Below are positions 1,822 through 56,492 of a DNA stretch of 64,000 nt, in pieces (position 1 is the first letter of the stretch; each line of letters starts with the position of its first letter). The position numbers and the translations under genes were made by a program. This stretch comes from Symbiodinium sp. CCMP2592. Its lineage: Eukaryota > Sar > Dinophyceae > Suessiales > Symbiodiniaceae. Where the stretch lies: contig CAJNDT010003279.1 of assembly GCA_905221615.1 (NCBI GenBank), forward strand, positions 682,641 to 746,640, in the 5' to 3' direction. Below the pieces are notes generated by a model. The model had not been told where the DNA came from and did not search any database. It was given only the letters and a program-made list of their open reading frames with translations.

Positions 1822-1893
1822 GAGCTCTGGCCTGGATGGGGTGTGGCGCCTCCTCGTTCCCCGCGTCTGGCGTGGACGATACTACACCTACAG
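1822..1893 (+). CDS. Pullulanase exon 1 as seen (CBM48-like region)
   Basis: Encodes [18 protein letters not shown], matching the GVW...W.G.YYxY pattern at the end of the N-terminal carbohydrate-binding part of pullulanases. Acceptor GAAG|G, donor CTACAG|GC, exit phase 2. It must be preceded by at least one exon (entry phase 1). The following intron (1894-3664) opens with TTTAGGG-like repeat to about 2130 and ends in a family H MITE; nothing else recognised. Confidence 0.82.
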
Positions 1894-4800
1894 GCAGCTT
1901 AGGGCTTTAGGGGTTTAGGGAATGAGTTTAGGGTTTAGGGGTGTAGGGTTTTGCAGCTTAGGGCTTAAAAGGGTTAAATAGGGTTGGGGGCTTTAGGGAT
2001 TTGGGGGTTTTAGGGTTTAGGGTTTGGGGACTTAGGGGTTTAGGGTTTAGGGTTGGGGGCTTTAGGGCTTCAGGGGTTTAGAGTTGGGGCCTTAGGGTTT
2101 CAGGGTTTGGGGTTTATCCCCGGGGGGTTAGGGTTTAGGGTATGAAGGCAAATTATGGCTTCGGGAGTCAATGTAGTTTGGGGTTTAGTTTTAGGGATCT
2201 ACCGTCTTCTATGGCACGCCTCTCAAGGCACCCTCCCAAGCAGTGCATGAAGCCTATCTAGGCCCATTGAGAGGCACGGAGGGCCACGGAGGCCTATTGA
2301 AGCGGATTGAGGCCCATGGGTTTAGGGTTTAAGGTTTAGGGTCGCCAGTGGTTTTCGTTGAGGCGGTTTAGTTCTCAGGCGTTGTAATCGAACGTTGCGC
2401 ACTTCCTTTCTCCAGTGGCCAACACACATTCCTAAAAATCCCTAACGCCTACCTCCTAAACCGCTGCGTTTGAGCAATCGTCATACAGCCACTCGAGAGG
2501 GCCTACCATGCAAGGTTTCGAATCCCTGAGCAACGGGCCTCCAAGACCCTTTTTTAGGGAATAACCCTTGAACTATGGTAGGAACCCTGATTTGCCCTTA
2601 AATAATAAGAAAAATCTCTTGTGGTATTGTAAGAACCCTAATATGCCTCCTACTTAAGGAGCATCCCTTAAATTTAAGGTGTATTGCTTGTGTTCAGGCT
2701 CATGGATCTGGCAAGGGAAGTACTACTTGAGACTCCCATGGTCTGTGCAAGTGTTTTCATTGTGGAGACACAGCTACTCCTACATGGAGGGCGGCAGGCC
2801 GCGCGAGGACATCATGTCGTCCGTGGAATGGGGTCGTACTATGAACATGAGCGCATCAAAGCATGTTTGGTGCTGAAGTCAAACTACATCGAGTATGAGA
2901 TGGAAATGCTCCGAAAATCATGTGGAAAGTATGCAACCGGACATGCGCGACTTGCGCAGCCTAGCTGCTGAAGCAAGTAACCTTCCGACGGATATACTCC
3001 GTGATCTTGTGGACTTTCGCGATACTCTGATGGCCATAGTTTAGTATCCTCAGGCTGCTAATTCTGTTGGATTCGCGTTGGGTCCTGAACCGGTCTCTGA
3101 TTAGTTTCTGATAGGTCCCTGGATGGTCTCTGATTGGTGTCTGATTGGTCCTTGATTGGGTTTTTGGAGTCTCCTGGAAAGCCCGATATTCCCAAGCTCC
3201 AAGCCGAATCTCGAGTAGCCATCCCAGTTCCTGGTTAGGTTTAGGGCTTCGAGCGGCGTTTAGGCTGGGTTTGGAGTCCTGGGGTTTAGAGTTTAGGTTT
3301 AGGGGCTCAGGGTTTTGGGGTGTGGGTTTAGAGCCGGAAACCCCGCAATGGCAAGACCCCTACACCACAGTAAGGCTACTTCTCGAATTCGATACTTTTT
3401 GACTTGATTGAAGGTCTTGGTCGCTCTGGGTTCCACCGAATGACCCGCCCACAAAACCCCAAAAGCCCCGTAAACCCTTTAGATCCCTTTAAAGAACGCT
3501 TATCTGCGTTCCCTTTAAAACAGTCCTGCAAGAGACCTTGACAACCCAAAAAACGCCCTCAAAACTTCCCACTTAAGTAGGGTTATTATAAGGTAACTAT
3601 ACTTTTAACCCAGATTAGGGGACTTATAACCTTCCCTTATAACTACCCACGAGCCTCCAAGCAGGGTCCGGGCCTATCACCCTGCCACCGGCCGCGTGGA
3701 AACGATGGAGACGCCGGATCCCTACTCCCACGCCTGCTCTGCAGATGCAGGGCGGTCCATGATCTGCCTCCTTCCCCCTTGGGTGCCTGGGATTGCACTA
3801 CTTGGAGGTTCATGGATAGTTATAAGTCAGGTTATAAGTGGGTAACAATACTTATCACCCATATTAGGGGACTTCTACCCCCACAAAAAGGAACTACCCA
3901 TGAACCTCCAAGTGTACGGGCTTTCTTAGGGCTGGCAGTTGGGTTTAAGGCCCCAAAAGCTTACCTGTTATCATAAAAAAAATGTTATAAAAAAATATGT
4001 CTGATCTAGGGCTCCAGGGTTTGAGTAGAGCATTGGGTTTTGGGTTGAAGCCCCAAGCGATGTACTTCTTATCCATAGGGGATTCCATAGGGAGCCCACG
4101 GAAAGAAGCCCTAGTAATAAAGCCGTAGGTCGTTTGGGTTGCAGGTAAGGTTTGCGGCTATGGTTGTTGGCTTGGGTTGCTTCGTTTGGGTAAGTTCTAG
4201 TTCAAAACCAACCTGTTGGGTTTCTTAAAAAGTATGTTGAACGCGGCTTGTGCACGGTGGCTCGATTGAGTTCTTGTTTTTTGTGCTGTATGCATACGGG
4301 CTTACGTCTGATTAAGAACCTACATCTGTGTCACTCAACTGTGAAACATGAAAATGAGTTCCTGGAGTGTTAGGGATAGCGAAAGGGCTTGCATTAGCTA
4401 TCCGACATCCAGAAGCACAGCCGTCTGTTTTGTCGAAGCCGCGAACTCCAACTCCAGCACCGTTCGTCGTGTACAGTCTGATTTGGTGTACCAGGCATTG
4501 GGCGCCGCCCCCATTGGATTTAGAATTATCATAGGAGGCCAAAAGGGGTTTTAGCCTATGGGGGTTCAGTAGGGATTAGGGTTCCCATGATAGGGTTCAT
4601 ATTAAGGAATCCCTACCGAGAATCTTAAACCCCCCTTTTGGCCTCCCATCAAAATCGGGGCTTAGGGTGGGTTTACTGGTGCATCAGGCCCTGAGATTTT
4701 TGTTCATTTCATTCAGAGCCTGCCTAGACGCCGAAGCCCTATTCATAAGCACTAAACGCTAAGTCCTAAAGCCTAGACGCTTAATACCTATTCATAACCC

Positions 4801-7800
4801 TAAACATTAAGTCCTAAAGCCAATCCCGGCCCAATCCCTCCTCCTTGGCAGGACTCTTGCAGAAGAAGCCCCCTGCATGATTCGAACAAGCCGTAGACCC
4901 CCCTCCACAAATTCAACCTCGAAATCGCCCTAAACATAAACTCTACCTGGACCCTAAGGAACCTACCTTCTTTAGGGTTCCCTAATATGATTTCTTTATA
5001 TAAGTCCTTAAAAAGGTAGGTTACGTGGGGTTAAGGTAATTACATCCTATCAAACATGCCAGATCGAAACATTCTATATCCTTGTAAACAAGAAACTAAC
5101 CCTATGCCTCCAAGGACCTTATAGTTAGGGCCCTAGACCCCTTAAGGACCCAAGAATAAGGTCCCGGGAAGCCTGGGTTAAGTCCAGGAGCCTTAATTAA
5201 GGAATATAGCCTAATCATAATATGAAGCCTCTCATGATTTAAGGTATATTCCTTAATTCAGGGGTATTGGGCTTTCTGGGAAAGCCCCTAATAACCAAAG
5301 CCCAGGAGCCGATAGACGAACAAGTTCCCGAGCTGGAGCACCGCGCGGATGCCGTGATTTACGAGCTGCACGTCCGCGACTTTAGCGCGCGAGATCCGAC
5401 GGTGGGGTGCCGAAATATGTTGAGGGTGGGTTTAGGGTTCAGGGGTTTAGGGGTTCGGGGTTTAGGGTTTAGTCTTTGAGCTGAGCACGGAGACCCTGCC
5501 ATTGGCCACTCGGAAAGCCGGTCTGTAATATGGGGGCCTCTATACTAACCTAACCTAGTTTGGGGGCTCCTTATTACGGTGATAGTACAATATGCCCCAA
5601 AATCCTATTCTAATTATTAATTAGGCCCCTATATTATAATCTTTGCGATTGCGGGAGCTCGAACCCCTACTTAGATGTTCTCCTAGTTTGTGCTGCATTC
5701 AGTCTGAGTAGGTTGGTTTTGAGCGTCCTAGAAGAGGCAGGGTGGGTTCTACTTGGGGTTTAGAGGTTCTGGCTTGACAGGGTTTTGAAGGGTTTGTTGT
5801 CAGACTTGGCATTTGGGGTCCGCTTTGCTTTCCACATAGTTACTCTCTAGGGATGTTACAACCCGTTAGAGCTTGAAAAACAGTTCCGAACTGGAGCCAC
5901 CGCATGAGTCTTCAAGCAAGGTTTTGGGCAGTGGATTGTGAGTTGCCTTTTGCTGCCCAATTCATCTGTGCATGAGGATTGAGGTAGCAAGGATCCTGTG
6001 CAACCCCATGCAGAACCATCTGAATCTTGCCCTGAAGCCTTAAAATGTCAAACCTCCCTGCAGCCCTAAACCCCACTCGCTATGTAAACCTTTGGGGAGG
6101 TGGAGGCAGCTTTCCGTGGTAAGTACCTCGCATTTGAACAAGAGGACACCAACGGCGACTTGGCTATGGGGGCTTGAGCGTTCAGTGAAAATTTCCATGA
6201 TCTACTAGAAGAGTTTCCAATGCTTCTCTTTAGGGTTCTTACTAGAACTTTACTATAACATATCCCATAAATATGAAGGCCCCTACATTACCGTCTTGCG
6301 GTGCGTCAATGGATGTCTATATAATATGGTGGTGTTGTAAGTTGGACCCTACAAAGCGGCAGGTCACAGCAAACTAGGCAAGCAAGATGTACCAACCTAA
6401 CCCCCAGAACCCCCAAACCCAACAGCCGACCCGCCAAACCCCATACCTGGAGCCCCCAACTACCCTCTATTGCAGCCCAAACACCCACTAGTAAGAACCA
6501 TCAGAGCTCCATTGAGTCTGGACTACCAAGACCTACTCTCCTGCAAGCTCCCCATCAGTTCGGTGGTAGGGATACCGGTTTCGGGTTTATGGGGGAGCTT
6601 AGGGTCAAAGATGAGAGCGAACAAGACCCCCCCCCCCAATTACCTTCAAATATACCGCAAATACCAACCCTTAAGGGACCCCCCCAACGACCTTCAAATA
6701 TATCGCAAATTCCCACTATTTGGGGGGCCAGAAGGGCTCTATTAAAGGGCCCTGGGCAGTCCTGGCAAGGCAGGGCTTAGCAGGGTGCAGGGCATCTTGG
6801 CGACTCGGAGCCTCTGTGTAATATAGGGGCTTAAATAACAACCAATATTATTCCTTAGGGTTCCTTCTTTTAGCTATAGTATTAAGGGCCCCAAATCCCT
6901 ATTCAAATTATTAGTGTAATTAAGGCCCCTATATTGCCTACCCCAACCACCTCCTCTGCTTCCCTTTTTTGGTTTGCCAGGTTGCTAGTTTGAACCCCCC
7001 AACGCCAACAAAGGAAGCCACAGCAAACAAGTTCGACTTTGACATGCGCTAACCCTGGACATCAAAATAGTCCAAAAGCCCTGTATAGTATGGTCTTTGA
7101 GCCTAAAAAAGCCTTAATATATGAGTCCTTAGAGCCCTAGTGTAAGCAGAAGAAACCTTAAGCAAAAAAGGGACTGCAGAGCTCCTACACCCTGCACCCT
7201 AAGCTCCGAGGTGACTGCCACCTTCGGCGTCTTGCGGCAGCTGGCCTTACACATGTGCATCTGCCGCCCGGCATCAAACGGTAGTTGGGGTTCGGGTTCT
7301 AGGGAACAGGGCCAAAAGACAGGGTTTGGGGTTTGAGGACCCAAAGTATTGTGGTTTCGGGCTTGGCACGTATGGGTTTTTGGGTTTTGGGGACAATATC
7401 GGCCACAATGGCTAGTCGTCCTCTTTCTCTAAGGGATAGTGGAATGTACCCCTGAAACCCAATTCTAATTTTTCTGGCCCCCAAAGGGTCGGAAGGACCC
7501 GAAATTAGTCAAGGTCATAACCTGAACCAAAACAAACCTTAACCGTAGATCTTGAAGCCGCAGAGGCTATAGCAGGTGTTTATGTAAGGTCTTAGGCAAG
7601 CTTCCCTGCTTTGGGCTTCAAGTTGAAACGTGCTGCTTCAGCAGGGCTTTTCGATATTAGGCACTTTGGCGTAGACTGCTAAGCAAGATTAGGGATATTG
7701 GGTCGTGGCACGGAGGGAATTGCAGCGTATGTTCGTTGAGATTCAGATAGAGGCGATTGTCGAACATGGCACATGATAGCGATACATGTAAAGTCATTCG

Positions 7801-10800
7801 GAACAGCCTCAAGTCCATGTTCATCATACAGTAATATTTCTGTGTTGCGTTTGGTTTCAGAATTGCAGTTGGTTTGAACGCGAGCAAGTACTTTTGCACC
7901 CCAGCTCGTTTAAGGCAGGTCTAGGTAGGCATCCGAGTTTTCAGATCCTACCCGGGAACTACCCATTGGCTCCATAGTAGTTCCTTGTTGGGATTTAAAA
8001 GGCTATAGGGTGATCCCAAAAAGGCACTACTATGGAGCCTCTGGGTAATGATTGCAGTCCAGATTAAATTTGAAGCTCCGTTCAGGCTCAATATTACGGT
8101 TCTTAGTGATCTTAGTCTGTACAGGGCTCCTTTTCTCTCGAAGGCTCTCAGGTTATTTAGTGCTAGAGTAGGCAACATGAAACTTCTTTTAGCGTATTAT
8201 AGCACGCCGTATCTTTTCCCAAACTTTAACCCTATCGAGGACCTCATAGTTAGGGCCCTAGACCCCTTAAGGACCCCATCATAAGGTCCCTGGAGGCATA
8301 GGGTAACCTTTATTACCCGGATAGTGGACAAGTAAGCCCAAAGGCTCCATGTACCGTTATAGTAGATACTTCAGCCTTAAAGGGGTCCCTATATAGGTAG
8401 TTTAAGGCCTAAGTATATACTATAAGGGTACATGGAGCCCTAAGTACTTCGAGGGGCAAGGGACTTAGTAAGCATGTTATAAGTAGGGTTATAATTGGGG
8501 TAAGTCCATTTATGGTACCTTTAACTCTACTTATATCCTACGTACTAAGTCCCCTGCCCCTCCAAGTAAGGTTACCAACCTACGACTTTGGCTCCGTGCC
8601 TGAGCGCGCGGCCGACCGCCGTGAGCCAGAGATCAACGCAACTGGGGCTTTTCAGTGGTTTTAGGGTTTAGGAGGATATAGAATTTGAAATTTTAGGGGC
8701 TTATATAGGGTTAAGGGTTTAGACTTTAGGGCCTAGCGGCTTTGGGTCTGATTAGACAGGTTTAGGGTGTCGGGCTTATAGAGTTTAGGTGGTGCGGGGT
8801 TTAGGGCTTGACGGCTTGACGGGTATCAGCATCAGGGCTTTTTGGGCGGAGAGGTTGAGGGTTCCTGGTTGTGTTCGGTAAGGATTTGTACTTAGGTGTT
8901 TTTAATGGGTGCCAGCCGACTTTGCTTATGATCCGTCCCAGATGCTAAACCTACCACCGTTTTAATACAGTATATGATTTGGTGTTGCCGTACGCTATAC
9001 AATATTGTACGGTATTATGCTGTATTACATCAAGTTACAATGGGTTTTATGTATGCCGTTTATACCATGTTATATGACATTATGTTATCTAGTTTTGGAC
9101 CTTGCTGCATGTTGCTGTATTGTAGTGCACTACACTACATTTTCAAGTATTGTATTAAGCCAGACTAGGCTGTAGAGCAGGTTTTATGTTTCTATGTTAT
9201 ATGGGATATGTTATATGATTCTACTTGTTATTATCATTACACTGTACTGCATCATGTTACGTTATGTCATGTTAAACAGTTTTTTAGTATATTCAGTTGT
9301 AACTATGAGATGTACTATCACATCTTGTACAAAGTTATGCCACCATGTTGTGCATTTTGAGGGGTTCTTCTGGGTTGCGGGTTCGGTTTGCAAGGTATCT
9401 TCCAGCTTCCGCGGCGCATGTGCAAGGTGTCTTGTTTGGTGTTTACGTTCAACCTTCATGAAGGCATATCTTTGCAGGGTGGTGGTTAGTGGTTTTACAT
9501 GTTTGCGTTCTTTCGTTCAACGCTTACTCAGAGGTGCGGAAGACTTTATACTTTATACAGTATGGTGCTTAAGCCCAAACAGTCTGAACACATGGCTCCT
9601 TCGGCTGTCAGTTGATGTAGCCTCAGCATGCCATATCTGCAATGTTTCCTAAACCCTAAAAAAAGTCAAGCCCTATAAGGGAATCCTTCTAAAACACTAT
9701 AGTTCGTACTAAGGAAGTCTAAGGGAGGCCCATTAAGGAATCCTATCCCTTAACATGAACCGCGAAGAGTGCTTATAAACCCTAAGCCCTGACCCTAAAA
9801 GCAAGCCCTAGGAATCCTAAGAGTGCTTATGCTCCGGGCTCTGAGGGCTCAGTCGGCTCATCGGTCCACCAGTGTTCGTAGTGGGACTCGGGGTGCTTGA
9901 AGTCTAGAGTTCTTGGGGTTAGGTCTTGCCGCAGCTTGTTTTTTTTTGTTTTTTGTTTATGGTTCTTTCTTTTTCTGTTTTTTCTCAAATAAAGCCTATA
10001 AACCCTATAGCTCGGGATTTTTGGGGGGTTGAATGTTGAAGTTGTGAAAGCCGAAGCCCCTTATGAGCCCTCTTTCTATGACCTCAGACCCCAAGAGCTC
10101 GGAAAACAAGTTGTGACTAGGGCCTCCGCCTCTCGAGGCGTGCTGTTTCGAGTAATTCGTTCCTTTTCATGGAGAGTTGGTGGGTGGCTGAGTGAGATTC
10201 TAAAGAACTAGGTACCGGAAGCAGGAATAAGGAATCTCTTTTCTTTATGTCTTGTGTAGGGCCCACAACCCCTGCCTAGTAGTAGAGTAGGTAACCTTTA
10301 ACCTCTTTTGGGTAGTATAGTCCCTATATAATCCCTATGTAACCAAAAAGGTTAACCTTGAGCTCCCCATGATACCCGACATGTAGGCCTATTATGTCCG
10401 TAAACTTCGCACACAGCCTCAACCTGCCGTGATGCCAAGCAATCAAGGAATCACCATTCCAAGCACTCCTCTTTCCAAAACCCAAACCTCAAAGTACCAT
10501 GAAAACAGGCTTGTATTTAACCCGTAAGCCAGAAAGTTGGAATTTGATTATCCTAACCCTTCTATGGTAAACTATAGGGTATCCTACCAAGAAACCATAT
10601 TCCAACTTTCTGGAGTTCCCTATATGTTTCTGCGGCTGGAACAAGCCAGCATGCGCAGCATCTTGCCCCATACCCTGAGCCGTCAACCTGCGACCCGAAG
10701 CCCTCATCCCCCACTCGAAACACAATAAGCCCCCATAAGCTTCCTAGAAGCTGCATCATAGAACCTTTACTTAGGGGTACTTAGAAATATTTTTTAAATT

Positions 10801-13800
10801 TTTGGTTATCATAATCCCTAAGAAACAGCTAAAATTACAATTTTTGCAAGGGTTCTAAGTTCAGTATAGTTTATAGAACCCTGTAAAGAACCTTTACCGA
10901 ACTCTGAGCCAGGAACGTACTGCTCGAGATTCTGAGGAGCAGCAAGCAGCAGTGCCCAGCCATACCTTTCAAGTTGCGACATTGGTTTTGGGTGTTAAGG
11001 TTTAGCATGAGGTACTATAGGGGGGTTTGGAATTTGTACTGGGTTCAGACGGTTCAGACCTTGCGAGCTAGTTTGGGTTTCGGGTTTAGGGTTTCGTATA
11101 ATACTTTGTATCCCTTCTGGCTCCATGTGCTCATATGGTATAAACTCAGGCCCAAATGGGGTTCCTACATTGGCATGGGTACCTTAAGGCCTAAGTATCT
11201 ACAATATAGGTACATGGAGCCTTAGGGTGTACCAGCTTGTGGGGACTTACGGTTCAGGATTCCATCAAATAAGAATATCCAAAGGTAAAAGGAGGGACCC
11301 TTAATAAGGACCCCTAGGTATATACCCTTAATATAGCTATCATATCCCCATTATATAGCCCCATTATAGGGTAGGGTCCCCATTAAGGGTCCCTCCTTTT
11401 CCCCTTTGAGAATATGAGGCTTGGCGGCCTTTCCTGTTTAGGAGCTAGGATTTTGTGCTGATTTTGTGTATTACTTAGGGTCTTAGGGTTTCCATACTTG
11501 TGCCTAAACCCCATAAACCCTAAACCCTAAACTAAGCCCTATACCCTATGCCCCAAACCGTAACCCTTAATAAGGGTCTAGACGGCGATTTCGGCCCCAA
11601 GCCTAGGTGATGAGCGTCGCGGACCGCGACTCCTTCAACTGGGGCTACGACCCAGTGCTCTATGGCGTACCCGAGGGCTCCTATGCCACGAACCCAGGCA
11701 TCATTCTACATATAGGGCATATATGCGGCACCACGATCCTTCTGTTTAGGGTCTATGATTTCATACGGATCCTGCTTTTTCGGGTCTATGTTACATGATA
11801 AGGGCCTTACTCTGTTGGATCTATGATACAATCATGGCCCTACTTTTCATGGCTACTAATACTTTTGACGGCTCTTCATAGGGTTCTGTTGACTTTCCAA
11901 GGTTTATTTTCAATACAGGGCAGAGCTGCATTGCTAGTTAGCTGTTAGTTTTAATTTAGGTATGGATGCCTGTGCTTAACTTAGACTTAGTATGGGTTAT
12001 CGACAGTCATAAATGTAGATGCCGTTCAGTATGCCCGCCCCCTAAACCTAAAACCGTAAACCCTAAACCCCTGCCAGATGGCTTGACACGAGTCGAAGAG
12101 CACCGCCGTATGGTGGCAGCTCTACATCGCAAAGGGCTGCGTGTGGTGGCAGACGTGGTCTTCAACCATGTGCCCCAGAGTTTGCAGTATTCCGTAAGCT
12201 AGCCGAAACTCTCGGCCTTAATATGGTTTAAATTACGTGTATGTGTATATTATATACTATGTGTGTGTGTGTGTGTCGGTGTTTTTTAAACAAATATACT
12301 TACTGAATTAGGGGATGCTGGAGTCGTGGTTGCGGCCGCGCATCGACTTTCAGAGCGATTTGACGTTCATAGCCAGGGGGTTACGTTAAAACGCTGCAAG
12401 CCCGGAATCTCGTGCGCTGGTATGTCAGACTATCTTTTTGAATGGGTCGTGAAAGCTGGCATATTGAATCAAATCCCAAAACTACCACAGAGTTGTTTGT
12501 CCTCTCTCTCTCTCTCTCTCTCCGTCGTTAGTTATCGCTCTCCCTCGGAGGTTTAGCAAGTCCAGTGCCCCATTCGACGGGGTGCAAGATGGGATGTAGT
12601 TTGCCGCACGCAGCCGGAAACAAAGATTGACACGTTACTTTAGTTTCCAGGGGAAGGGGGAAGGGGGTGTTCAACTGCACTGGGAAGCCCACTGCTGTTA
12701 AGACTGGTGCTGGGAATGGAGTCCTCTGCAGAAATCCCGTCATGCCTTCTTGTTGTTGTCTTGTTTGTTGTTCTCACTTCCATTATCTATTGTCGCTGTC
12801 GCGAGTATTCTTGAGATTGTTAACGTTCTTCTTATGATGAGATGAAGGGACAGCCCAAGCACCCTGCAGACCGGGAAGACAATGCAAAACAGCATAAGCT
12901 GCACGAAAGAAGGACGTTCTACAAACCTGGGCCCGAAACTTACCCAGAGACTCCAACATCCCTTAATTAAGGAATATACCTTAAATTATAGTAGGGTCCG
13001 TAATATGATTTAAGGTATATTCCTTAATTAAGGGGTATTGGATACTCTGGGGGCCTTAAGAACTAGAATAGGGTTTCTTTACTATAAGGGTGCTATAAGG
13101 GTGTAGTATAGGGGCCTTGATAATTAGAATAGGGTTTCGGGGCCCGATATACTATAACTATAGAGGAACCCACCAAAATAGTATAGGTAATTATTAAGGC
13201 CCCTATAGTAATCAGATATGGATGTGCATGTCAAGAGTCCCTGAGCCTTTATAAACCATGCAAGCCGTCAACCCTCTTGATAGAGCCCTAAACCCTGCAC
13301 AGACAACACGGCGAGACCTGAAAGGGCGAATGTGGACATGAGGTTGCCCCTACATGTTTCTCGGGCCAAGGCTAAAAATTGTGAAAGCAAGTCTGTTGGA
13401 CATTATTTTCGCGAAGCAGCGGCAGTTACGAGGATCGCGATCCGGTATGAGTGTTGACATTTGTGGATGCATGACGAACCCGGAACGATGCCAAAACGAG
13501 CTTTCCGCAACTACAGTGCTCGCAAGCATTTGCCAAAAGCTTCACGAACGTGCCTCGGTAGGATTCTTGTCGCATGCCCAGCCTCAGACCCCTGCATCTT
13601 TGATCCGGATTCCGTTTGCCATGCAGCCAGAGCATATATTGCACACCCTTGTGGTTCCAAGTTAGTTATTCTTGTGTAAGGCTTGCCCGCAAAGATACTT
13701 GGGAGCTGCCGGGAAAAGAATAGGTACCCAGAGAGCCCAATACTCGGTGATAAGAAATGCCTTTAATGATAATTTTATAGGAAGGACTGTTGCGGGGGAT

Positions 13801-19800: not shown

Positions 19801-20105
19801 AATTCAGAATTATGTCGGGGTTCATTGTCATAGGGTATTGAAATTGGATTACGAGCTTTCGTTTTCAGCAGGGTTTATTGCCTGGCATGCGGTCCGTGGG
19901 TGTTTAGGTTTCGGGTCTCGGGCTCTTCGGCATCTTAAAACCTAAACCCTAAACCCTAAAGCCCTAAAGCCCTGAGGTTTAAGGCTAGGGGTTGAGGCAT
20001 TGCGCAATCCAATCCCGAAGCGCAGATCCCCAAGTCCTAAACCCGTAAACGATGTCGGGATGAAGCATGTTAAAGTCGAAGCAACTCAAAGCTTTACACC
20101 CTTTG

Positions 20106-20161
<56 letters not shown>

Positions 20162-41100: not shown

Positions 41101-41285
41101 AGGTGGTCGGTGTAATTCTTTCAGAATGATCATATGAGTTGAAGAAAGTCTGCATCAGAGGGGCAAGGTACAATCTAACCGAGGCTACACTACAGCTTTG
41201 TACAATGAACTGTCCAGCAGCAGGAACGATGAAACGCTGAAACGTGAATCTACTGCCGTGAAGCCACACTAGCAGTTTGATACCG

Positions 41286-41316
<31 letters not shown>

Positions 41317-41547
41317 GGAAACCCTACTTGAGTGCGCTATCCTAAACGCTCGACAGTAGACGCACCACGATACTCCAATCTAGTGCCCCAGGGCGCTCCC
41401 AAACTGAATCATACTAATTCCCTGAAGACTTCATCCCTATAAAGACTCCCCCACAACACCCGCTGAAGGATCGCTTAAGGTTAAAGGATCCCCTCAGACT
41501 CAAGGATACCTGTAAGGGTCAGCTCCGAGGCTTCCCTATCACATGGC

Positions 41548-41606
<59 letters not shown>

Positions 41607-41678
41607 ATATATACATACATACATATATATATATACACATATGCATACATATATATATATATATATACATATATACAC

Positions 41679-41711
<33 letters not shown>

Positions 41712-43250: not shown

Positions 43251-43872
43251 TCTACTTCTGGCCCAAGGTACTTGTAGGGAGTACTTGAAGGCCAAAATGT
43301 GTACTACTTAAGGTACATGGACCCTTACGGAGCCAGTATACTTGTTTTCATATGATAGAAAACCCTCAAAACTCTATTCTAGCATCCAACACCCCGGCTG
43401 TCTTTCGGGATCAGAACCTACAATTATGGGATCATAGCCTACTATTTTGTAGGGTTTGGGCTTTCTTTCTTCTATGTAGGTTTCCATCTGCGCATACCCG
43501 GAGATAACAGGCTGATCGTAAAAGAGTACTATGGAGTACTCGAAGTATCCAATGCTCCTTTATACAGGCTTCCGCCTTGAGGGGTGTCGGGTCTAAATCC
43601 CTTCCTTGCAGCATCTTGAGCCCTACACCCCTGAGCCCAGAAACTCTAAACCCTGAACCCCTAGATCCTTAGCCCCTCACACCCCACACACTGAAAACAT
43701 TGAGCTGTAGATCCCTTAACACAGAGCTGAACATAATGGCGTTTAGGATTAGAATAGGGTTTTGGGGCCCAGTAATACTAAAAATATAATGAGGAACCAC
43801 CAGCATAGTATACGTAATTATTCAGGCCCCTATGGTAGAAATGAAACCCCCAAGCTCCAGACCTGTGCACAG

Positions 43873-43953
43873 GTAGAGCCCCTACCCGGCCGCGATGGCT
43901 ACAAGGCCATCGTCAGAGACCGTGTTCGGCCGGGGGCAACGATCCGACAGGGT
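43873..43953 (+). CDS. Possible upstream exon of the P4H-like gene
   Basis: An open, GC-rich segment after CACAG|G reading VEPLPGRDGYKAIVRDRVRP then GATIRQ, with codon use like the recognised exons. I cannot match it to a P4H block, and the 3' boundary is a guess. It may belong to an N-terminal extension or to nothing. Confidence 0.3.
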
Positions 43954-44209
43954 CTGCTCTTACTGTGGTCTTGTGACGCATCTTTGCTTCTATCTATATA
44001 GTTTGCCATGAAAAGGACAGCCATGCATCTTTGGAGTGGAAACGTAGTCCTGCCAGCCGTAAGCCCTAATTGACTACCATAGCCTCAAAATCCACCAGCT
44101 CTGGCACTTCCTCAGACTTCATGAAGCAGAGTCTTGCAAAAAGAAGAAACCCCTGAGGATTGGAAAACGGGTTCTGAGCCTGAATCCGAACCAGGCGTAG
44201 CCAAGCGCC

Positions 44210-44419
44210 CTAAGGGTCCATGTGACCAAATACGGTTGATGATATAAATCCTGCATTACCTTAAGGACCCTAGACTATGCGAATCATGGTATGTTCCTTA
44301 CTCTGGGTAATGCAGGATGTATATCATCAACCGTAGTATATACTGCGGTCTTAAGTGTACTCCCTATATAGGTTCGTTGGGCCCAAAGTATACACTATCT
44401 GGGTGCATGGACCCTTAGG
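44210..44419. repeat. Family I-like MITE split by a family J MITE
   Basis: Outer arms CTAAGGGTCCATGTGACCAA and GGTGCATGGACCCTTAGG. Inside, 44231-44335 is a complete family J element, TACGGTTGATGATATAAATC ... TATATCATCAACCGTA. Confidence 0.88.
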
Positions 44420-44668
44420 GAACGGTTTAGTTAAGTTTAGGGTTCGGAAAGCCCTGACCAAAAGAACATCCCGCTCATGCCAGGTGGGAAAAATCCAAAC
44501 CCCAAACCCTTAAAAACCTTGACTTTCAAGCCTATTAAACCCCAAGCTTTAAACCCTGGACCCGAAACCCTGAACCCTCAATCCCAAACGCTAAACCCTA
44601 AACCCTACTCCCTGGACCCTCAAACCTGAACGATCAATAGGTTCAGGAAGCACCTCCAAAGCCGACAG

Positions 44669-44698
44669 GCGCACCCGCTCAAGCGGAACTTTTCCTGC
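44669..44698 (+). CDS. P4H-like exon B (30 nt)
   Basis: Encodes RTRSSGTFPA, matching the (V)RTSSGxFL motif. Acceptor GACAG|G. A GC donor in phase 2 joins to exon C as SSGTFPAVKAVKARV. The intron (44699-46927) carries nested telomere/MITE sequence at 45153-45322, a family L MITE (45865-45976), an (AGT)n tract (46349-46476) and a family J MITE (46755-46840). Confidence 0.68.
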
Positions 44699-46355
44699 GC
44701 CGTGATGTGAGTCTTCGGTTCATGCCTTTAAGAGTTTATGGTTCAGGATTTTGGGTCTAAGAGCTTCCTATATAGATCTCGCCTCTTCATGGTTCATGAT
44801 ATAGCAAAACTGTATTCTAATTGGTAATACGGGCAGGAGGAATTTCTAGCTGACATCATCCGCTTCTGATTCCTGATGTAATTTTTCGCCTAACCCTGAG
44901 CCCAGTAAGTGCTGAAGCCGAGTCCTCTGAGCGGCCCCCGGGAACTAGGCACTCATCTCATGCGCTACTTTTCGTTGTCATAGTTGGGTAACATTTTACA
45001 TTTTTAAGGGTACTTAAACCCAATAAGGAGCAAAAATGTACATTTTTTAATCCTATCCCAACCATGAACTACTTGTATGTGGGGATCATGACTGTCAAAC
45101 GAAGGCACTAAACTCTGAGGATCTTGGGTCAAACACGGGAGCCCGAAAGCCCACTTGGAGGTCCATGGGTGGTTACAAGTAGAGTTATAGGGTTTAGGGT
45201 TTAGGGTTTAGGGTTTAGGCTTGGAGGTCCATGGCTGGTTACAAGTAGAGTTATAATAGTAGGTTTTCTATACTTAGGGGACTTATAACCCTACGTATAA
45301 CTACCCATGAACCTCCAAGCAGAGTCTCGGAGAGCTGCGACTTACCATAAGGGTCCAAGTACAAGGGGTGTAGGGGTTTGGGGTTAGGGGTTCAGGGGAA
45401 TAAAGGTTTGAGGGGTTTAGGTTCAGGGTTTAGGGTTGTTGGTGCCCAAAAAGGGTGGAAGTACTGCTCCAGCCTCAACCGTAAAGCCTGTTGAAAGCCC
45501 CCGAAGCTCCTCTGCAACCGCACCAGCAGACCTAATAGGCTTTAACGCCTGTTTAAAAGGTGTTAAAGCCAAACCCTGAACCTTAAACGTTCGGTCAATG
45601 GACCTGATCTCTACTGCGCATGCTCAGAATGAGACCCAGAAAAGGTCCTTAGATCTCGGGGGCCAGAGCAGCTGCTAGCTGCTAGGGATTGTGATATATG
45701 GTCTGCGGATTGCGGACTGCGGTTCATAGTATCAGTGCTGTAGCCTTGCTGTACCGGACTATTCGGCCTTCATCAGGTTTTCAACCTTATGGGGTTTACT
45801 GTAGGATCATCGAGGGAAGTTGGGGCTCCAGGTAGAGCCAGGTTTTGTGGTCCTTCGGCATAGTCTAGGATGCCCAGTACCACCCTTATTCCCTTTTTGT
45901 AGTCCTAGGTTCCTTATTAAGTTACCCAATACCAAAAAGGGAGCCCGTTTTATTCCTAGGTTTCTGGGCATCCTAGGAGTGCAGGGTCCGGCTTCCGGTA
46001 TAGTCCAGGTAGTGCGCACCAGGACGTAGAAACGTTGCACTGTTGACCATCTGAAGAATTCCAAGTTGTCTTGGCCACATCGTGAGAATATACCCACAAA
46101 CCTGGATCCTAAACTCCTACGTTAACCCTAAACCCTATATAAAACCGAAGCCCAAAAACCGCTCTGAATCCTAGACTCCTGGACCAAGTTTGCGGCTTTG
46201 CAAAGCAAGTGACAGGATCAATACTGGCAATTGTGAAAGGGCAAAACCCGGTACCTTGCACCCCGAAACCTGATTATCAGCTTTTATTCTTATTGTTTTT
46301 CGCTATTCTTATTAGTTGTGGCAGCAGTAGCAGCAGCAGGAATAGCAGTACTAGT

Positions 46356-46398
<43 letters not shown>

Positions 46399-46404
46399 CA
46401 GCAG

Positions 46405-46476
<72 letters not shown>

Positions 46477-49400
46477 GCCCGCTGTTCTCTCTGGGTCCCA
46501 GAAGGAGCGCGCAGAACTCGGTTTACCGCTGCTGCAAAAGAGTGCTGTCCAACCAAAGGTTTTCGGATGATGTTCAAATCGTAGTCGTCAGATAAAGGCG
46601 GCCAAATTCGGGGGTGCAGATGTAAGTTTTGCTTCAGACGCAACTTGACCTTCCATTGGAGTTTATTAGGGCTTAGGGGTTTAAGGTTTAGGGGTGCGCT
46701 GCAGCCCCGCCTCAAAAGGGTTCAGGGGTTTAGGGGGCGAGCGCAAGACATCCATACGGCTGATGATAAAAATCCTGCATTTCCCATAGTAAGGGTTATA
46801 CCCTGGTTAAGGTAATGCAGGATTTATAACATCAACCGTAGTGGAGGGATAAGTGTCCGATCACCACTCAAGGGGGTCTTTGCCAAGGAGCATTTGGGAT
46901 TCTTGCGCCCTTCGCTTTGGGCTTCAGGGTTAAGGCGGTTAAGGCAAGGGTCCAGGATCTACAGGACCTCCCTGCCGACACAGCAGCAATTCGCATGACC
47001 CCTCACAGACACACTCACACAAAGCCTACATCCCGAACCATGCATAGCGCCTTATCAAACCTCATCTTTCTTTGCTCTGAGGTTGTTTCCTCTATTCGTG
47101 AACGGGCTGCCGGTGAGTTCGGTTTGTGCCTGCACTGGAATCAGAGTTCATGTATCGGGTCTTCATGTTAGTTGAGGGTTTACGGTTTCAACACCCTGGA
47201 AACCAGGAGCCGAATGTCATGTGGGTGGTTGGCAAAATCAGGGTCCCTTTCTGGGTACCCTAAATATTAGGTGCCGTATTACAGTAAGGACCCAAAAAGA
47301 GACCATAATTTTGACAACCACCCATGTAGCACCAACACTGTAAAGTGCTAAATATGTGATGGAACGCTGAATGGCATGCCCTTAGATGCTGTGTTTATAT
47401 TCCCTGTACAAAAATCACAAAACTCTAGCCGCTAGTCCTACCTTTAGCCTGCATTGCAGTTCCTTCTTTGGTTAACAAGCTCTTCTTCAACAAGATCCTA
47501 GCCATAACATGGCCGTTTTCCAAAAAGGAACTACAACAGAGACTCCAGGTAGAGCTTTAAGTTTTCAGGATTAAGCGTCTCAAAATCTCAAGGCTGAGGC
47601 TGGTGGGGCTCTTCTTCGTGGCCCAAACTATAGGGTTTAGGGTTTAGGGTAAACTAAACAGAATCCTATGAGTTACACCCAAAAAGGAACTACTTTGGGG
47701 CCTACCTGGACCCCAAAAGTATGCAGCATAATAGCCTTTTATATGTTTTGGGACATTATTCTACCTACTTTGGGGGGACACCTGAGTTATTCCTGACATC
47801 ATGCCTCATATCGAGTCCCGGTTTGACTTTCTACTACAATATACTCCCCAACCCGACTGTATTTATGAAGGCCCCTCTTTGTACCCACTAAGCACAACTT
47901 AACTATAAAGAATCTCCCTGACCCAAACCCTAAGGCCCAAAATAGCCCAAAAGCCTTAATGTATGAGTCCTCAGAGCCTTAGGGAAAGCCGGAACAACCC
48001 TAAACCCTACACCCTCAACCCTACACGCTAAACTCTAAACCCTAAACCCTACACCCCAACCTTAAACCCTAAACCCTAAATCTTAAACCCTAAACCCTAA
48101 ACCCAGGCCTGAGAGCCACGTCGAGCCTCTGCAGCTGGTTCGGTACCGCGCCGGGGAGTTCTATGCCGCACACGTCGACTGGGGTCGCAAGGAGGACTGC
48201 GATTCCCAGAGAGCCCAAATACCCCAATACCCAACCTTTAAACTTTCTGGGTTCCTAGAGTTTAGTAGTACCCTGAAAGTTCAGCCTTTTGTGTGTGTGG
48301 CCTGTTGGAGAAGTAAGCTATAGGCCACTACACCTTCCTAAAGCCTACATACGGCCCCTAAATCCCTAAATCCTTAACCCTACCTAAGACTCCTTTAAAC
48401 TGTCAGATGGAATCTACTACCAACTACTATTCTGGAATTAGTTATTCCCCAAAAGACCATCCCAAGGGTAGCTTTCTGGACCGTTTTGGAATCCCCCCTA
48501 TAAACCCGAAACCCCAGTATATGGACGCTCTTGGGTAACCCCTAACTGAACCATAACTTTATGGACACTCTTGGGATTCCCCTAAACCCGCTATAAACCC
48601 TAACTATATTTCTTAGATATCGAACGGGGGAGCTTTAAACTTTTTGGCCTTATATGTTTTTCTCTATCTTGGAAAGGTTGAACTCTTTTGGGCCTGGTTG
48701 TTGAAGAAGAGAGTATAAGCCCTTACTATATATGGGTGGTTGTCAAAATTATGGTCCCGTCTGGGGAATATTAGGTGCCGTAGTATATTAGGGATCCCAA
48801 AAAGGGATCATAATTTTGACAACCACCCAATTACCCTAAACCCTAAACCAAGGAACCCTTAAAGGATCCCGTTAAAGGAGCCCTAGTTTTCGGAAGCTCC
48901 CATATGGACCCTCTTGGACGGTCAGGATTCCACCCTTTGGCTGGCGGGTCAGCGCGTGGCCACGCTGCTGGTGTACCTGACAGAACCAAGAGGCCGGCAG
49001 TCGGAGTTTAGGGTTTGGGTTTAGAGATGTTTAGAGTTTAGGTTTAGGGGTTTAGGGTTTAGGAGTTTAGGGTTGTTTAGAGTTTAGGTTTAGGAGATAA
49101 GGGGTTTAGAGATGTCGAGTTTAGGTTTAGGAGTTTAGGGTTTAGAGATGTTTAGAGTTTAGGTTAGGGGTTTAGGGTTTAGCAATGTTTAGAGTTTCGG
49201 GTTAGGGTTCAGGGTGCGCGGTTTAGTTTCGGAACCAATTGAAGGTAGGTAGGGTTTTAGTTTAGGGTCCAGGGTTTGGAGTTTAATTAGGGGTTTAGGG
49301 TTCAGGGTTCAGAGATCAGGGGCCAGGGTTTGGAGTTTCGGGGTTCAGGGTTTAGAGATCAGGGTTTCGGGATCAGGGTTTGGAGTTTCGGAGTTTAGGG

Positions 49401-49786
49401 TTCAGGGTTTAGTTTGAAGGGTTTGGAGTTTAGGGTTTAGGCTTTGAAGTGTAGGGGTTCAGGGCTCGGGGTTTAGAGGTCTGGATTAGGGTTCAGGGCT
49501 GAGAGTGTTGTCTCTGTGCGTGTGTTCTTGGTGTGTGCGTTGCTTAATGTTTTTTGTAGTATGTATTTTGTGCTGAAGTTCCCGCGACACCTGGATTGGG
49601 AACTAACTTCAAGTAATTTTCATCTGTGCTCCGGGGGAACCCGAGTTTCGAATCTCCTTAGCACTATAAACTGTAGAACCATCGATGCATCGTCATCGCC
49701 ATGATGATGTTGGTCGGTACCGACCATGCCATCGACAAGATCAACAGCCACAGCCATCCCTGAAAATAATAGTAGCCCTCATGATC

Positions 49787-49821
<35 letters not shown>

Positions 49822-49863
49822 TATTTTCTTCTTCTTCATCGTCATCATGCCAAAAATGGGCAG

Positions 49864-49897
<34 letters not shown>

Positions 49898-52304
49898 TCA
49901 TCAACCATCGTATTCTATGGTGAAAGCAGCCCCTCCCACCAAGTGTTAATACCAGTCGGCCAAGTCTTTCAACACGCCTACCGCACCCTACAAACTCATG
50001 GTGCCTGACAAGATGAGAGTTGTCCGTTCCATTCTGTACGAGAAAGTACTATGAAGAATGTCCAGGTCTACATAAGTTGGAGTTTAGGACGCTTTGCCGC
50101 GATCCACGGTCAAAAGAAGTCCCAGGTGATGCAACCACTGCGGCCGGTGGGGAAACGCGCCCTCCGGCGGCAACACAAGCTTGCATTATCGGCAGTGGAG
50201 TTCGTAGCCCACACCCTTGAAGTTGTCCCCAGTATAGAATAGAGGTTTGAATTGGCCTGAATCTTGGGCAAGAGCATCGCTTTACGAAGACACTATCTTG
50301 TGGGGTTGCCAGATTCACGACGCAATCTGGTGACCATACATGCCGCATAATCCACTTCTAAGTGTTGAGGCTCCCACGCTAGCTAGGCTTCCTAGGGAAG
50401 GGCGAGCTTCAAGAGTGACGGTCTTTGCACTCTTAGGCTAAGACATTCTTTCCGTGGAGCTCGATGTGGGGCTTCTTTCAATTACGAGTCGTTTGTTCAA
50501 AAGTCCTCGAAAACCGGATCCTAGTGTATACTATCTCCATTTGGTCCACTTGGTTCCCTTACTATTTTAAACTCCCTGGTTCAGTCGACACGCTCAAATC
50601 TGTACCCCGAACCCCCGAAACTTGACACTTCGACAAGCACCACATCCTCTAAAGACCCTGGCGTCCTACCACCCTAGACCCTAAACCATAAATCCCGAAA
50701 CCCTAAAACCCTAAACCCTAAAACCCTAAACCCTAAACCCCGAAACCCTAAACCATAGAACCCTAAACCCACCCGTCCCATGCACCTGCCAGAACCCGCT
50801 CCTTGTCGGGCCCGGTGTGACGGTTTTGGGTTTAACGGCGGCAGGTTTAGTAAGGGTTTAGGGTTTAGTCCCCGGCGCAATCCCAGGCTTCACGCAGCTT
50901 GACATAAGTGCACCCTGGCTCAGATCAGCAGAGATCCTCCCCGGTTCAGGGTGTAGGGTTTCCATCAGTGAGCAATATTGACCTTGAATCATGTTGACGA
51001 TTCCGCTCTTGTTGTTCAAGGTTGTTTCCACACTTGACTGGCATTGGGCCTTGTAGCTAGGTAGTTGGCTTCGTAAACGTTGGTTTGTTTTGGGGCTAAA
51101 TCATGGTTCCCGATAAGCTGCACATCTAAATATCTGCTAGCTTGTGAAATAGGCGGCTATGCGATGCAGCCACCACCACCACCACGTGGGCTTTTTACAA
51201 GGTAACTCAACACGAACTAGGTTGCGGGTCGTCTATTTAACTACGCGTAACTGCTAAGCCCAATTCCATGTACCAGTATGTATATATACTTATATGCCTT
51301 AAAGTCGCACTTGACGTCTGTGATAGGCTGTATGAGTACAGAAGTCACAGTCGAGTGGTAGTGCCGAGAAGACGTGCAATGCTGCAGCCTTTGTTGATGG
51401 AGCCCTCCGACCATGAATACTTCCAAAGCCGCCACAATCGCCAACCCTAAGTCTTCCAAAAGACTCTACTACAGACTGGGATGCCTAGTAGTACCCTTAT
51501 TCGGTTTTTGTAGTCCTAGGAACCGTATAAATTTCTAAAGTTACCCAATACCAAAAAGGAAGCCCTCTTTATTCCTAGGTTACTGGGCATCCTAGCAGGC
51601 TGGGCATCCTAGCAGAAGATAGAACCCTGCACACTCAGGAGCCCTAAGCACTCAGGGAGTGCGAAAGATACTGTAACATACACAGAGCCCAGAGAAAAAA
51701 CGAACCAGCAGACCAGATGACTCCGTTGCGTGTTCCTGTTCAGAGAAAGCAAGCCTAATACACCAAGGGTCCAAGTACCTAATAATCATAGACTCTCCCA
51801 AATCCTAACCTACATAACTATTATCCTAAAACCGAGTACCTAACTATTGGGTCCTTTGGCTTTGGGGGAGTCTGAGGGGTGCAGAGGTTTCGGATGCGGT
51901 TTTCCGCGGTTCAGCTTTCCAGGCGGGTGGTTGTCAAAAATAGGGTCCCTTTTTGGGTACCCTAAATATTAGGTGCCTTACTATAATAATGCCTAATTTT
52001 GACAACCACCCAGGTGAGTGCTTTGGGTTTGAGGTTGAGCCTCGTAGAACCGGAGGCGGCTGGGGTTGCCGGGAACCCCGAAACTCCGAAAACCGCCTAA
52101 AACCCCCAACATCTCTGAACCCCTAAATCCCCAAACCCCAAACCCCTCAACTTAAACCTCTAAACCCTAAACCCTTAGGGTTTAGGGTTTAGGGTTTATA
52201 GGGTTTAGGGTTAATCCCGAAGCCTCTAAACCCCTAAGCCCGAAGCTCCTAAGCTAAAGCTGAAGGTACCTCCAACGCCCGGGGTCGCCATCCTCTGGCC
52301 AAAT
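44669..52304 (+). CDS. Prolyl 4-hydroxylase-like 2OG/Fe(II) dioxygenase, split gene, C-terminus not found
   Basis: Enzymes of this family hydroxylate proline in target proteins using 2-oxoglutarate, O2 and Fe(II), usually in the secretory pathway. Six exons in order give RTRSSGTF (the RTSSGxF motif), ARVQDLQDLPADTAAIR (helix), LQLVRYRAGEFYAAHVDW (LQVxxYxxGxxYxxHxD with the first Fe-binding His and Asp), AGQRVATLLVYLTE (GxRxATxLxYLxD), GAIPGFTQL (GGxTxFP-L) and LKVPPTPGVAILWPN (LxVxPxxGxALxWxN). Junction phases agree. The distal Fe-binding His and the 2OG-binding Lys would lie in a further exon that I cannot find before the retrotransposon at 53.45 kb. At least one N-terminal exon is also missing; 43873-43953 is a weak candidate. 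Confidence 0.82.
45153..45322. repeat. MITE family H with telomere-repeat insertion
   Basis: Left end CTTGGAGGTCCATGGGTGGT occurs twice (45153 and about 45220), separated by four perfect TTTAGGG units (45188-45219); right end ACCCATGAACCTCCAAG. Confidence 0.85.
45865..45976. repeat. MITE family L
   Basis: CTAGGATGCCCAGTACCACC ... TTTCTGGGCATCCTAG. Confidence 0.92.
46349..46476. repeat. (AGT)n microsatellite
   Basis: About 40 trinucleotide units; it yields poly-Val and poly-Tyr frames that are not genes. Confidence 0.97.
46755..46840. repeat. MITE family J
   Basis: TACGGCTGATGATAAAAATC ... ATTTATAACATCAACCGTA. Confidence 0.88.
46928..46996 (+). CDS. P4H-like exon C
   Basis: Encodes VKAVKARVQDLQDLPADTAA then IR, equivalent to the IExRIAxxTGLPxxN helix. 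Acceptor TTCAG|G; a GA donor (CGCAT|GA) joins to exon D as IRMPESHVEPLQLVRY. The intron (46997-48106) has a family D MITE (47222-47324) and CCCTAAA repeat just before the acceptor. Confidence 0.72.
47222..47324. repeat. MITE family D
   Basis: TGGGTGGTTGGCAAAATCAG ... AATTTTGACAACCACCCA. Confidence 0.9.
48107..48200 (+). CDS. P4H-like exon D (Fe-binding HxD)
   Basis: Encodes PESHVEPLQLVRYRAGEFYA then AHVDWGRKEDC. The LQxxxYxxGexYxxHxD motif supplies the first His and the Asp of the Fe(II) triad. Acceptor ACCCAG|G; GA donor (TGC|GA) in phase 0. The intron (48201-48925) holds a family O repeat (48222-48316), a family S repeat (48615-48715) and a family D MITE (48733-48829). Confidence 0.88.
48222..48316. 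repeat. Repeat family O, copy 2
   Basis: CCCCAATACCCAACCTTTAA ... GGCCTGTTGGAGAAGT; matches 36399-36495. Confidence 0.75.
48733..48829. repeat. MITE family D
   Basis: ATGGGTGGTTGTCAAAATTA ... ATAATTTTGACAACCACCCA. Confidence 0.9.
48926..48992 (+). CDS. P4H-like exon E
   Basis: Encodes DSTLWLAGQRVATLLVYLTE then PR, matching GGQRxATxLxYLxDV. The GATTCC at both ends of the preceding intron supports the GA donor of exon D. Donor is GC. The intron (48993-50868) begins with about 500 bases of degenerate TTTAGGG, has ATC microsatellites (49783-49898), and CCCTAAA-like repeat at 50680-50770. Confidence 0.87.
49000..49500. repeat. Degenerate TTTAGGG region after P4H exon E
   Basis: About 500 bases of GTTTAGGGTTTAG, GTTCAGGG and GTTTAGAG words, beginning 8 bases after the exon E donor. 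Confidence 0.92.
50869..50900 (+). CDS. P4H-like exon F
   Basis: Encodes PGAIPGFTQL, fitting the xxGGxTxFPxL block. The acceptor GTTTAG|T lies inside a TTTAGGG repeat. The 3' end is uncertain: a GA donor after CTT or a boundary after GAC. The intron (to 52259) contains MITEs at 51476-51595, 51764-51866 and 51924-52012, and ends in CCCTAAA-like sequence. Confidence 0.6.
51476..51595. repeat. MITE family L
   Basis: CTGGGATGCCTAGTAGTACC ... GGTTACTGGGCATCCTAG; the right 18 bases are repeated once more just downstream. Confidence 0.85.
51764..51866. repeat. MITE family K
   Basis: CAAGGGTCCAAGTACCTAAT ... TATTGGGTCCTTTGGCTTTG. Confidence 0.83.
51924..52012. repeat. MITE family D
   Basis: GGGTGGTTGTCAAAAATAGG ... 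CTAATTTTGACAACCACCC. Confidence 0.9.
52130..52215. repeat. Head-to-head telomere-like repeats
   Basis: CCTCTAAACCCTAAACCC turns directly into TTAGGGTTTAGGGTTTAGGG, an inverted junction. Confidence 0.85.
52260..52304 (+). CDS. P4H-like exon G
   Basis: Encodes LKVPPTPGVAILWPN, the LxVxPxxGxALxWxN strand. Acceptor AAAG|C; GC donor (AAT|GC) proposed. The next exon, which should carry the distal His, was not found. The interval 52305-53452 holds GCAT microsatellite (52465-52540) and sequence I cannot assign. Confidence 0.72.
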
Positions 52305-56463: not shown

Positions 56464-56492
56464 AGAGGCCTTTTGCTCCGGGCTTTGGCCGG

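Follow-up and report, generated by a model that had tools for sequence, protein, structure and literature searches.

Dinoflagellate genes contain dozens of tiny exons, and their donors are little more than a G. An example is given by a 64,000-nucleotide stretch of DNA from Symbiodinium sp. CCMP2592 (here, the window; C3279:682641-746640 in a 1.10-Gb assembly of 5,383 contigs), whose main gene, a very intron-rich gene for a pullulanase/limit dextrinase, has introns with telomere-like repeats. A sequence-only reading of the window had proposed that TTTAGGG follows the 5' splice sites (donors) and that CCCTAAA precedes the 3' splice sites (acceptors). We confirmed this inverted orientation on either side of short exons, both in the pullulanase introns and in those of a second, prolyl 4-hydroxylase-like (P4H-like) gene. 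A strand-polar repeat of this kind would be a concrete, testable cue for exons, or else would show clearly how splicing filters repeats.

Genes and intron models

PU1 of Symbiodinium natans (P0001) is the closest relative found for the main gene and is 62% identical to it across 76% of the query. The second gene resembles a prolyl 4-hydroxylase by motif only, and the sole relative found for it, P0121 of Symbiodinium pilosum (53%), matches 2OG-FeII_Oxy_3 with an E value of 0.0043, below the Pfam cut-off. To judge from these gene relatives, a Luciferase_N/LBP domain, and the use of GT, GC, and GA donors, the window is dinoflagellate DNA.

Exons were located by tblastn with dinoflagellate and other homologues, and splice sites were placed by scoring pairs of a G[TCA] donor and an AG acceptor against the homologues, with a small bonus for AG/G (the slash marks the splice junction). 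The donor and acceptor dinucleotides were assumed in this modelling rather than discovered by it. The resulting set has 32 homology-placed introns, 29 in the pullulanase gene and 3 in the P4H-like gene, with 11 GT, 15 GC, and 6 GA donors and an AG/G acceptor in 31 of the 32, a count that the bonus somewhat raises. The median intron is about 1 kb long and the median exon 59 nt, and 28 pullulanase exons join into 582 stop-free codons. Two introns near the pullulanase 3' end (about 38390-39563 and 39669-41837) have uncertain splice sites and were excluded from the main counts; an earlier list of 30 introns, which included these two and left intron 27 undivided, gave a similar picture.

Telomere-like repeats flank exons in inverted orientation

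We called any rotation of TTTAGGG, taken as a 7-mer, G-type and the complements (CCCTAAA) C-type. The 64 kb contain 139 copies of TTTAGGG and 135 of CCCTAAA, whereas base composition would lead one to expect about 4 of each. G-type words cover 657 bases within 100 nt of the 32 donors, and C-type words 7; within 100 nt before the 32 acceptors, the G-type covers 21 bases and the C-type 469. When the distance is cut to 80 nt, G-type words accompany 22 of 32 donors and C-type words 1, and acceptors are accompanied by C-type words in 15 of 32 introns and by G-type words in 1. The estimates made earlier by eye were about 16 and about 11 of 29 introns. With words merged into clusters, we counted, within 100 nt of splice sites, 22 G-type clusters and 1 C-type cluster at 5' ends (p 5.7e-6) and 15 C-type and 3 G-type clusters at 3' ends (p 7.5e-3). 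The orientation statistic was 1098, compared with a maximum of 434 over 10,382 circular shifts of the whole junction set, and no shifted control (0/10,382) reached half of the observed bias. A motif-blind k-mer contrast of 5' and 3' zones placed rotations of TTTAGGG/CCCTAAA at the top on both sides. When coverage is given in the order 5' G-type, 5' C-type, 3' G-type, and 3' C-type, it amounts to 245, 7, 14, and 83 bases in introns 1-14, to 336, 0, 0, and 303 bases in introns 15-29, and to 76, 0, 7, and 83 bases in the P4H-like introns, which share the polarity as had been claimed.

The 7-mers cover 0 of 1,750 exon bases. Among neighbouring clusters no more than 400 nt apart, a modelled exon is enclosed in 14 of 21 C-to-G intervals, compared with 0 of 15 G-to-C, 2 of 23 C-C, and 1 of 23 G-G intervals; within the window, exons do sit, as had been described, as islands between CCCTAAA on the left and TTTAGGG on the right. 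In the 30-intron list, the "right" strand fills 0.17 to 0.20 of the bases in the two 50-nt bins by donors and 0.14 to 0.16 by acceptors, and the "wrong" strand fills 0.00 to 0.01 near either end. Deeper bins (150 to 400 nt) hold 0.02 to 0.07 of the right strand, with a single 400- to 450-nt donor bin at 0.13. The strand excess declines over about 150 nt on both sides, and past 200 nt there is a weaker bias, with 567 G-type and 356 C-type bases in the first half of introns and 387 and 568 in the second half (a count in which the intron 28 donor was placed 3 nt off). Coverage to the right of both genes, at 52.3-64 kb, is about 13 (G-type) and about 7 (C-type) times below that in the pullulanase gene. 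We rejected a general compositional skew as the cause: the skew mostly tracks the arrays, and array-free ends have little of it (GC skew of 0.04 at 8 5' ends and -0.11 at 11 3' ends). A search of Rfam gave 0 matches.

Real exceptions to the polarity are the acceptor of P4H-like intron 32, where a G-type word lies within 80 nt, and a pullulanase exon upstream of the window (L055:7486-7524). One apparent exception, an intron 27 thought to be mixed inside, proved to be two introns around a 31-nt micro-exon (34648-34678, plus strand). This exon was found by homology, has a Cys split across its junction, and is followed by a G-type array less than 80 nt past the donor. That an apparent exception concealed an exon suggests a possible use of the polarity in gene finding.

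The two ends of an intron behave independently. Co-occurrence of 5' G-type and 3' C-type arrays within introns is absent (table 11/11/4/6, p 0.71, and rho -0.17 at 100 nt), in a set of 32 in which weak coupling could go undetected, and arrays across exons are uncorrelated (rho 0.07). The suspected link to unusual donors held in part: 14 of 15 GC donors have a 5' G-type array within 150 nt, compared with 8 of 17 other donors (p 0.007), a weak, post hoc association uncorrected for multiple testing, with 13/15 versus 9/17 at 100 nt (p 0.06) and 14/15 versus 10/17 at 200 nt (p 0.04); GA donors do not share it (2 of 6). Also post hoc and uncorrected, intron length correlates with 5' G-type coverage (rho 0.37 to 0.41) and with 3' C-type coverage (rho -0.40 to -0.46).

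Repeats beyond the window

In the assembly, overlapping matches to (TTTAGGG)3 number 73,488 on one strand and 75,164 on the other; a reversed control gave 0 and 1. We sampled 196 kb in 20 stretches around array hits, 19 of them from one contig (the C1 sample), and scored intervals of 60 to 400 nt with a codon model trained on the window exons. The median codon score was 10.5 for C-to-G intervals (n = 64), 7.2 for G-to-C (n = 46), 7.0 for C-C (n = 43), and 7.1 for G-G (n = 64), with p values of 3e-5 to 7e-5 for C-to-G against the other types. There was no relation between GC content and array density in this sample (rho -0.10, p 0.35). At 565 CCCTAAACCC sites in the C1 sample and locus L055, AGG came next in 0, GAG in 1, and GGA in 1. 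The repeat is also present in 17 IMG/VR loci, of which the 3 inspected show long unbroken frames and the other 14 were only counted.

Splice signals and a proposed sorting of repeats by splicing

The donor signal of these introns is poor, with about 4.4 bits of information over positions -3 to +9. G stands at +1, +2 is never G, C stands at +5 in 21 of 32, and G stands at +8 in 21 of 32; the usual GTRAGT pattern is not followed, and 6 of the 11 GT donors read GTGCCY. Acceptors hold about 6.8 bits over -15 to +3 and have no pyrimidine tract. In 36.4 kb, 113 donor-like and 30 acceptor-like positions score at least as high as the median true site. No fixed branch point was seen, as CTAA words are scattered 15 to 150 nt before acceptors without a peak. 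Upstream of the AG/G acceptors, AGG is depleted: the nearest AGG lies at a median of 67.5 nt, compared with 27 nt expected. Because AGG is set back in this way while plain AG close to acceptors is common (median 9.5 nt), it is AGG that is avoided, rather than AG, and a simple exclusion of AG before acceptors is ruled out.

The best explanation that we can offer, and one that might equally prove right or wrong, is that splicing sorts dispersed telomere-like repeats. Degenerate repeats of this kind would build up in the introns of parts of the genome, and the splicing machinery would then sort array orientation beside exons. In a transcript the G strand would read UUUAGGGUUUAGGG, presenting UUUAG/GG every seven bases in the likeness of the gene's AG/G acceptor consensus, and upstream of true acceptors it would be purged by selection as a decoy acceptor. 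The C strand (CCCUAAA), being free of G, could serve as neither donor nor acceptor and would offer a C-rich tract with a branch-point-like CUAAAC, so that before acceptors it may be tolerated or favoured. After donors the G strand would be tolerated and probably favoured, as a G-run or UAGGG intronic enhancer of donors worth about 4 bits. The 3' side fits decoy sorting directly, since a G-type array gives an AGG every 7 nt and a C-type array has no G, and independence of 5' and 3' arrays is expected if selection acts on each splice site separately. Selection through splicing, of the causes considered the most likely, would then account for the pattern, with a possible enhancer role at donors.

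Several observations weigh against this explanation. Decoy avoidance alone leaves the scarcity of C-type words after donors (7 versus 657 bases) unexplained, and their absence there would call for an added positive role of G runs or, alternatively, for a cost of branch-point-like CTAAAC near donors. The arrays are also dispensable for splicing, as, within 80 nt, 10 of 32 donors have no G-type word and 17 of 32 acceptors no C-type word. In other genes of the assembly, exons were located by family models (9 of a CPSase gene, 37 of three phosphorylase genes, and 20 of 79 myosin matches). These 66 exons have 132 sides. Within 150 nt, arrays touch only 18 of them, in the expected orientation on 12 and in the opposite one on 6 (p 0.12), and the other 114 are array-free; the corresponding counts are 9 and 6 at 100 nt and 13 and 7 at 200 nt. 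In one myosin exon (L058) both sides are reversed. Upstream of the window, the donor side of pullulanase exon L055:7486-7524 is C-type (C 47), and the six sides of the three upstream exons in L055 comprise 3 that conform (one mixed, C 25/G 20), 1 that opposes, and 2 that are array-free. Mixed results came from a crude ab initio scan for exons in the C1 loci, in which many calls are probably non-exons. In bases within 150 nt, G-type versus C-type on the donor side and C-type versus G-type on the acceptor side, it gave 780 versus 286 and 775 versus 684 at a score of at least 13 (n = 110), 193 versus 184 and 453 versus 312 at 16 (n = 58), 154 versus 168 and 370 versus 173 at 19 (n = 38), and 79 versus 7 and 248 versus 107 at 22 (n = 22). 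A stricter filter left 9 exons (p 0.11-0.14).

Possible alternatives: local peculiarity or exon-definition code

The alternative that survives best is a local peculiarity, in which one array-rich gene and its neighbour had their bias fixed by chance ancestral expansions, with little or no general function. It accords with the few arrays and the lack of significant orientation in the other sampled genes, and with genome-wide counts in which a C-type array runs directly into AGG 425 times and into GAG 339 times, only a 1.25-fold difference. However, 37 of the 41 clusters that lie no more than 100 nt from the 64 splice sites of the two genes follow the bias, and C-to-G intervals on the sampled contig are more coding-like, so we hold a purely local origin to be unlikely, if well worth keeping in view. 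In the pullulanase gene, with its dense arrays, the polarity is strong; elsewhere in the genome it is patchy.

A larger claim would make these repeats a strand-polar exon-definition code in a subset of array-rich genes of this dinoflagellate lineage: short exons, with splice sites of their own too poor in information to be recognized, would be flagged by CCCTAAA upstream and by TTTAGGG downstream. We think this rather doubtful.

Some of the sampled genes have features of their own. The CPSase- and phosphorylase-like loci L048, L049, and L050 have shorter introns than the pullulanase gene, a GC content of about 0.55, and 0.2, 0.7, and 3.8 telomere-like words per kb, respectively; some of the genes with a GC content of about 0.55 might come from another eukaryote in the assembly. 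Contig G000:C5051 (L040-L042) has three uninterrupted full-length CPSase frames with equal scores, a hint that the dinoflagellate contigs are mixed with bacterial or duplicated ones.

Intron gain as a possible origin

The repeats had also been read as possible scars of how introns spread. Introns could have arisen from transposons of the introner type whose terminal inverted repeats were telomere-like, or through the rejoining of telomere-capped breaks. The order exon-TTTAGGG...CCCTAAA-exon is that expected at the fusion of two capped ends, and the orientation fits too. Dinoflagellates do possess introners with inverted repeats, according to PMC7789003, PMC9860276, and PMC10666404. One end of a miniature inverted-repeat transposable element (MITE)-like sequence also falls on the acceptor of intron 5, and there is a related end at intron 1. 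However, both origins predict that arrays are present in pairs at the two ends, and no such association is seen among the 32 introns. The first array word lies at a variable distance from the donor, from 3 to more than 100 nt. PMC10666404 defines dinoflagellate introners by an inverted repeat of 8 to 20 nt within 30 nt of both ends; with exact matching only, repeats of at least 8 nt so placed were found in 0 of 32 introns, where mismatched introns would lead one to expect 1.6. In-register direct repeats of at least 4 nt (the introner feature is 3 to 5 nt) stand at the boundaries of 11 of 32 introns, with 7.2 expected from mismatched pairs. When the window was compared with itself, the matches listed, 140 of 154, were MITE-like copies, tandem repeats of local extent, and telomere-like tracts up to 292 bp long, and none of those listed spans a whole modelled intron. 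We consider an origin of the pattern in intron gain improbable.

The MITE-like element at 8445-8570 (plus strand) is palindromic and ends exactly at the intron 5 acceptor. Self-comparison gave further copies at 180-305, about 35765-35889, and 62426-62537, and related ends at 3615-3668, which spans the intron 1 acceptor, and 45274-45326. The element seems to supply 3' splice sites, as introners are reported to do in Symbiodinium (PMC9860276). A 23-nt probe from it had no exact match in viral or GTDB contigs, among which the window's own genome was perhaps left out.

Possible pairing of intron ends

Complementary arrays at both ends of one intron RNA could pair and bring its splice sites together, as the sequence-only reading had also suggested. 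The 5' and 3' arrays are reverse complements, 5' x 3' duplexes are predicted to be stronger (own ends, -46.4 kcal/mol; mismatched ends, -48.8 kcal/mol) than duplexes between mid-intron segments (-38.6 kcal/mol), and in 11 of 32 introns the predicted own-end duplex falls below -50 kcal/mol. Own ends have no advantage over mismatched ones, however (permutation P 0.90), 5' x 5' pairs are almost equal in strength (-45.6 kcal/mol), and in 15 of 28 cases a 3' end pairs better with the 5' end of the next intron, over the short exon, which would favour looping out of that exon. With the two ends uncoupled as well, we give pairing very little credence.

Individual introns

All modelled introns lie on the plus strand. 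The first pullulanase exon in the window (1822-1893), located by tblastn with P0001, has a C-type array about 55 to 97 nt upstream of its acceptor and a G-type array directly downstream. Arrays of both kinds, G-type at the 5' end and C-type at the 3' end, mark introns 3 (5402-6099), 7 (10952-11606), 12 (16281-16696), 14 (18547-19415), and 15 (19436-20358), all with GT donors, and introns 4 (6155-7210), 8 (11698-12077), 19 (22915-24558), 24 (29142-30303), and 28 (34679-35991), all with GC donors. Among these, intron 8 has the sole acceptor without a following G, intron 12 has a C-type word in addition within 80 nt of its donor, and the acceptor choice for intron 19 is less certain.

A G-type array at the 5' end is the mark of introns 1 (1894-3664, its acceptor at an end related to the MITE-like family), 5 (7263-8570, its 3' end the exact end of a MITE-like copy), 6 (8638-10912), 10 (14117-15390), 18 (22088-22875), 20 (24657-25390), and 25 (30362-32164), which have GC donors. 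It is likewise found in intron 13 (16750-18486; GA), in intron 27 (32965-34647; GT), the first half of the former mixed intron, and in intron 29 (36048-38317; GA), whose array begins 5 nt into the intron. In the P4H-like gene, G-type 5' ends belong to intron 30 (47126-48106; GT), which ends in CCCTAAACCCTAAACCCAG before a G, and to intron 32 (48993-50125; GC), where the G-type word by the acceptor makes the exception. The C-type array at the 3' end characterizes introns 16 (20421-21108; GC), 21 (25425-26329; GT), and 26 (32220-32889; GT) and, within 80 nt of the acceptor, P4H-like intron 31 (48195-48925; GA). Both ends are without a 7-mer within 80 nt in introns 2 (3783-5305; GT), 9 (12170-14009; GT), 11 (15422-16232; GA), and 23 (27409-29068; GA), and the whole intron is without one in introns 17 (21178-22053; GC) and 22 (26395-27339; GA).

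Intron 29 also holds a tandem array (37537-37947) with units of about 21 bp, by translation, across which three minus-strand frames are open. Farther right, an open frame at 56442-57740 (plus strand) has a Luciferase/LBP N-terminal domain (PF05295), typical of dinoflagellates. Next comes a 1,285-codon frame at 57744-61598 (plus strand) that matches C-5 cytosine methylase weakly (E 0.00051; 20 bits, where the cut-off is 22) and is possibly a retroelement with a methyltransferase.

Relation to known systems

The sequence-only reading knew of no earlier description of such an arrangement, and we found none of strand-polar telomere-like repeats around exons among the papers listed by full-text searches of open-licence PMC literature on introners, inverted repeats, telomeric words, and introns, mostly in dinoflagellates. 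The nearest relatives are dinoflagellate introners. As portrayed in reports on Amoebophrya (PMC7789003), Symbiodinium microadriaticum (PMC9860276), Prorocentrum cordatum (PMC10666404), and Suessiales (PMC10522408), these resemble the introns studied here in having inverted repeats near intron ends and GC and GA donors, and hairpins have been proposed for them. Unlike the present introns, where the count is 0 of 32 with an exact inverted repeat, the introners so described have inverted plus short direct repeats at the ends of the same intron. The arrays here consist of degenerate tandem repeats, lie at varying distances from the splice sites, and show no coupling between the two ends of an intron.

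Sister stwintrons of Hypoxylon (PMC9024468) have terminal inverted repeats of 45 to 55 nt and form one sequence family. They are alike in that a symmetry of intron ends is proposed to join splice sites, and unlike in that the introns here have nothing in common but a simple repeat and some short copies of the MITE-like element. In zebrafish, introns that carry AC repeats and complementary GU repeats splice via RNA structure (Lin et al. 2016, as described in PMC9024468). They too have strand-polar complementary simple repeats near opposite ends, but the introns here gave no evidence of within-intron coupling or of better pairing of their own ends. Inverted repeats near intron ends need not, then, imply introners or hairpins.

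Intronic G-run and UAGGG enhancers, of the hnRNP H/F and A1 type, act near 5' splice sites, and U1 is involved in reading G runs. To our knowledge, this enhancer model has no matching C-strand telomere-like word before acceptors. Its likeness to the present introns lies in G-rich words just past the donors, found within 80 nt in 22 of 32 introns, where they would have a putative function of the same kind.

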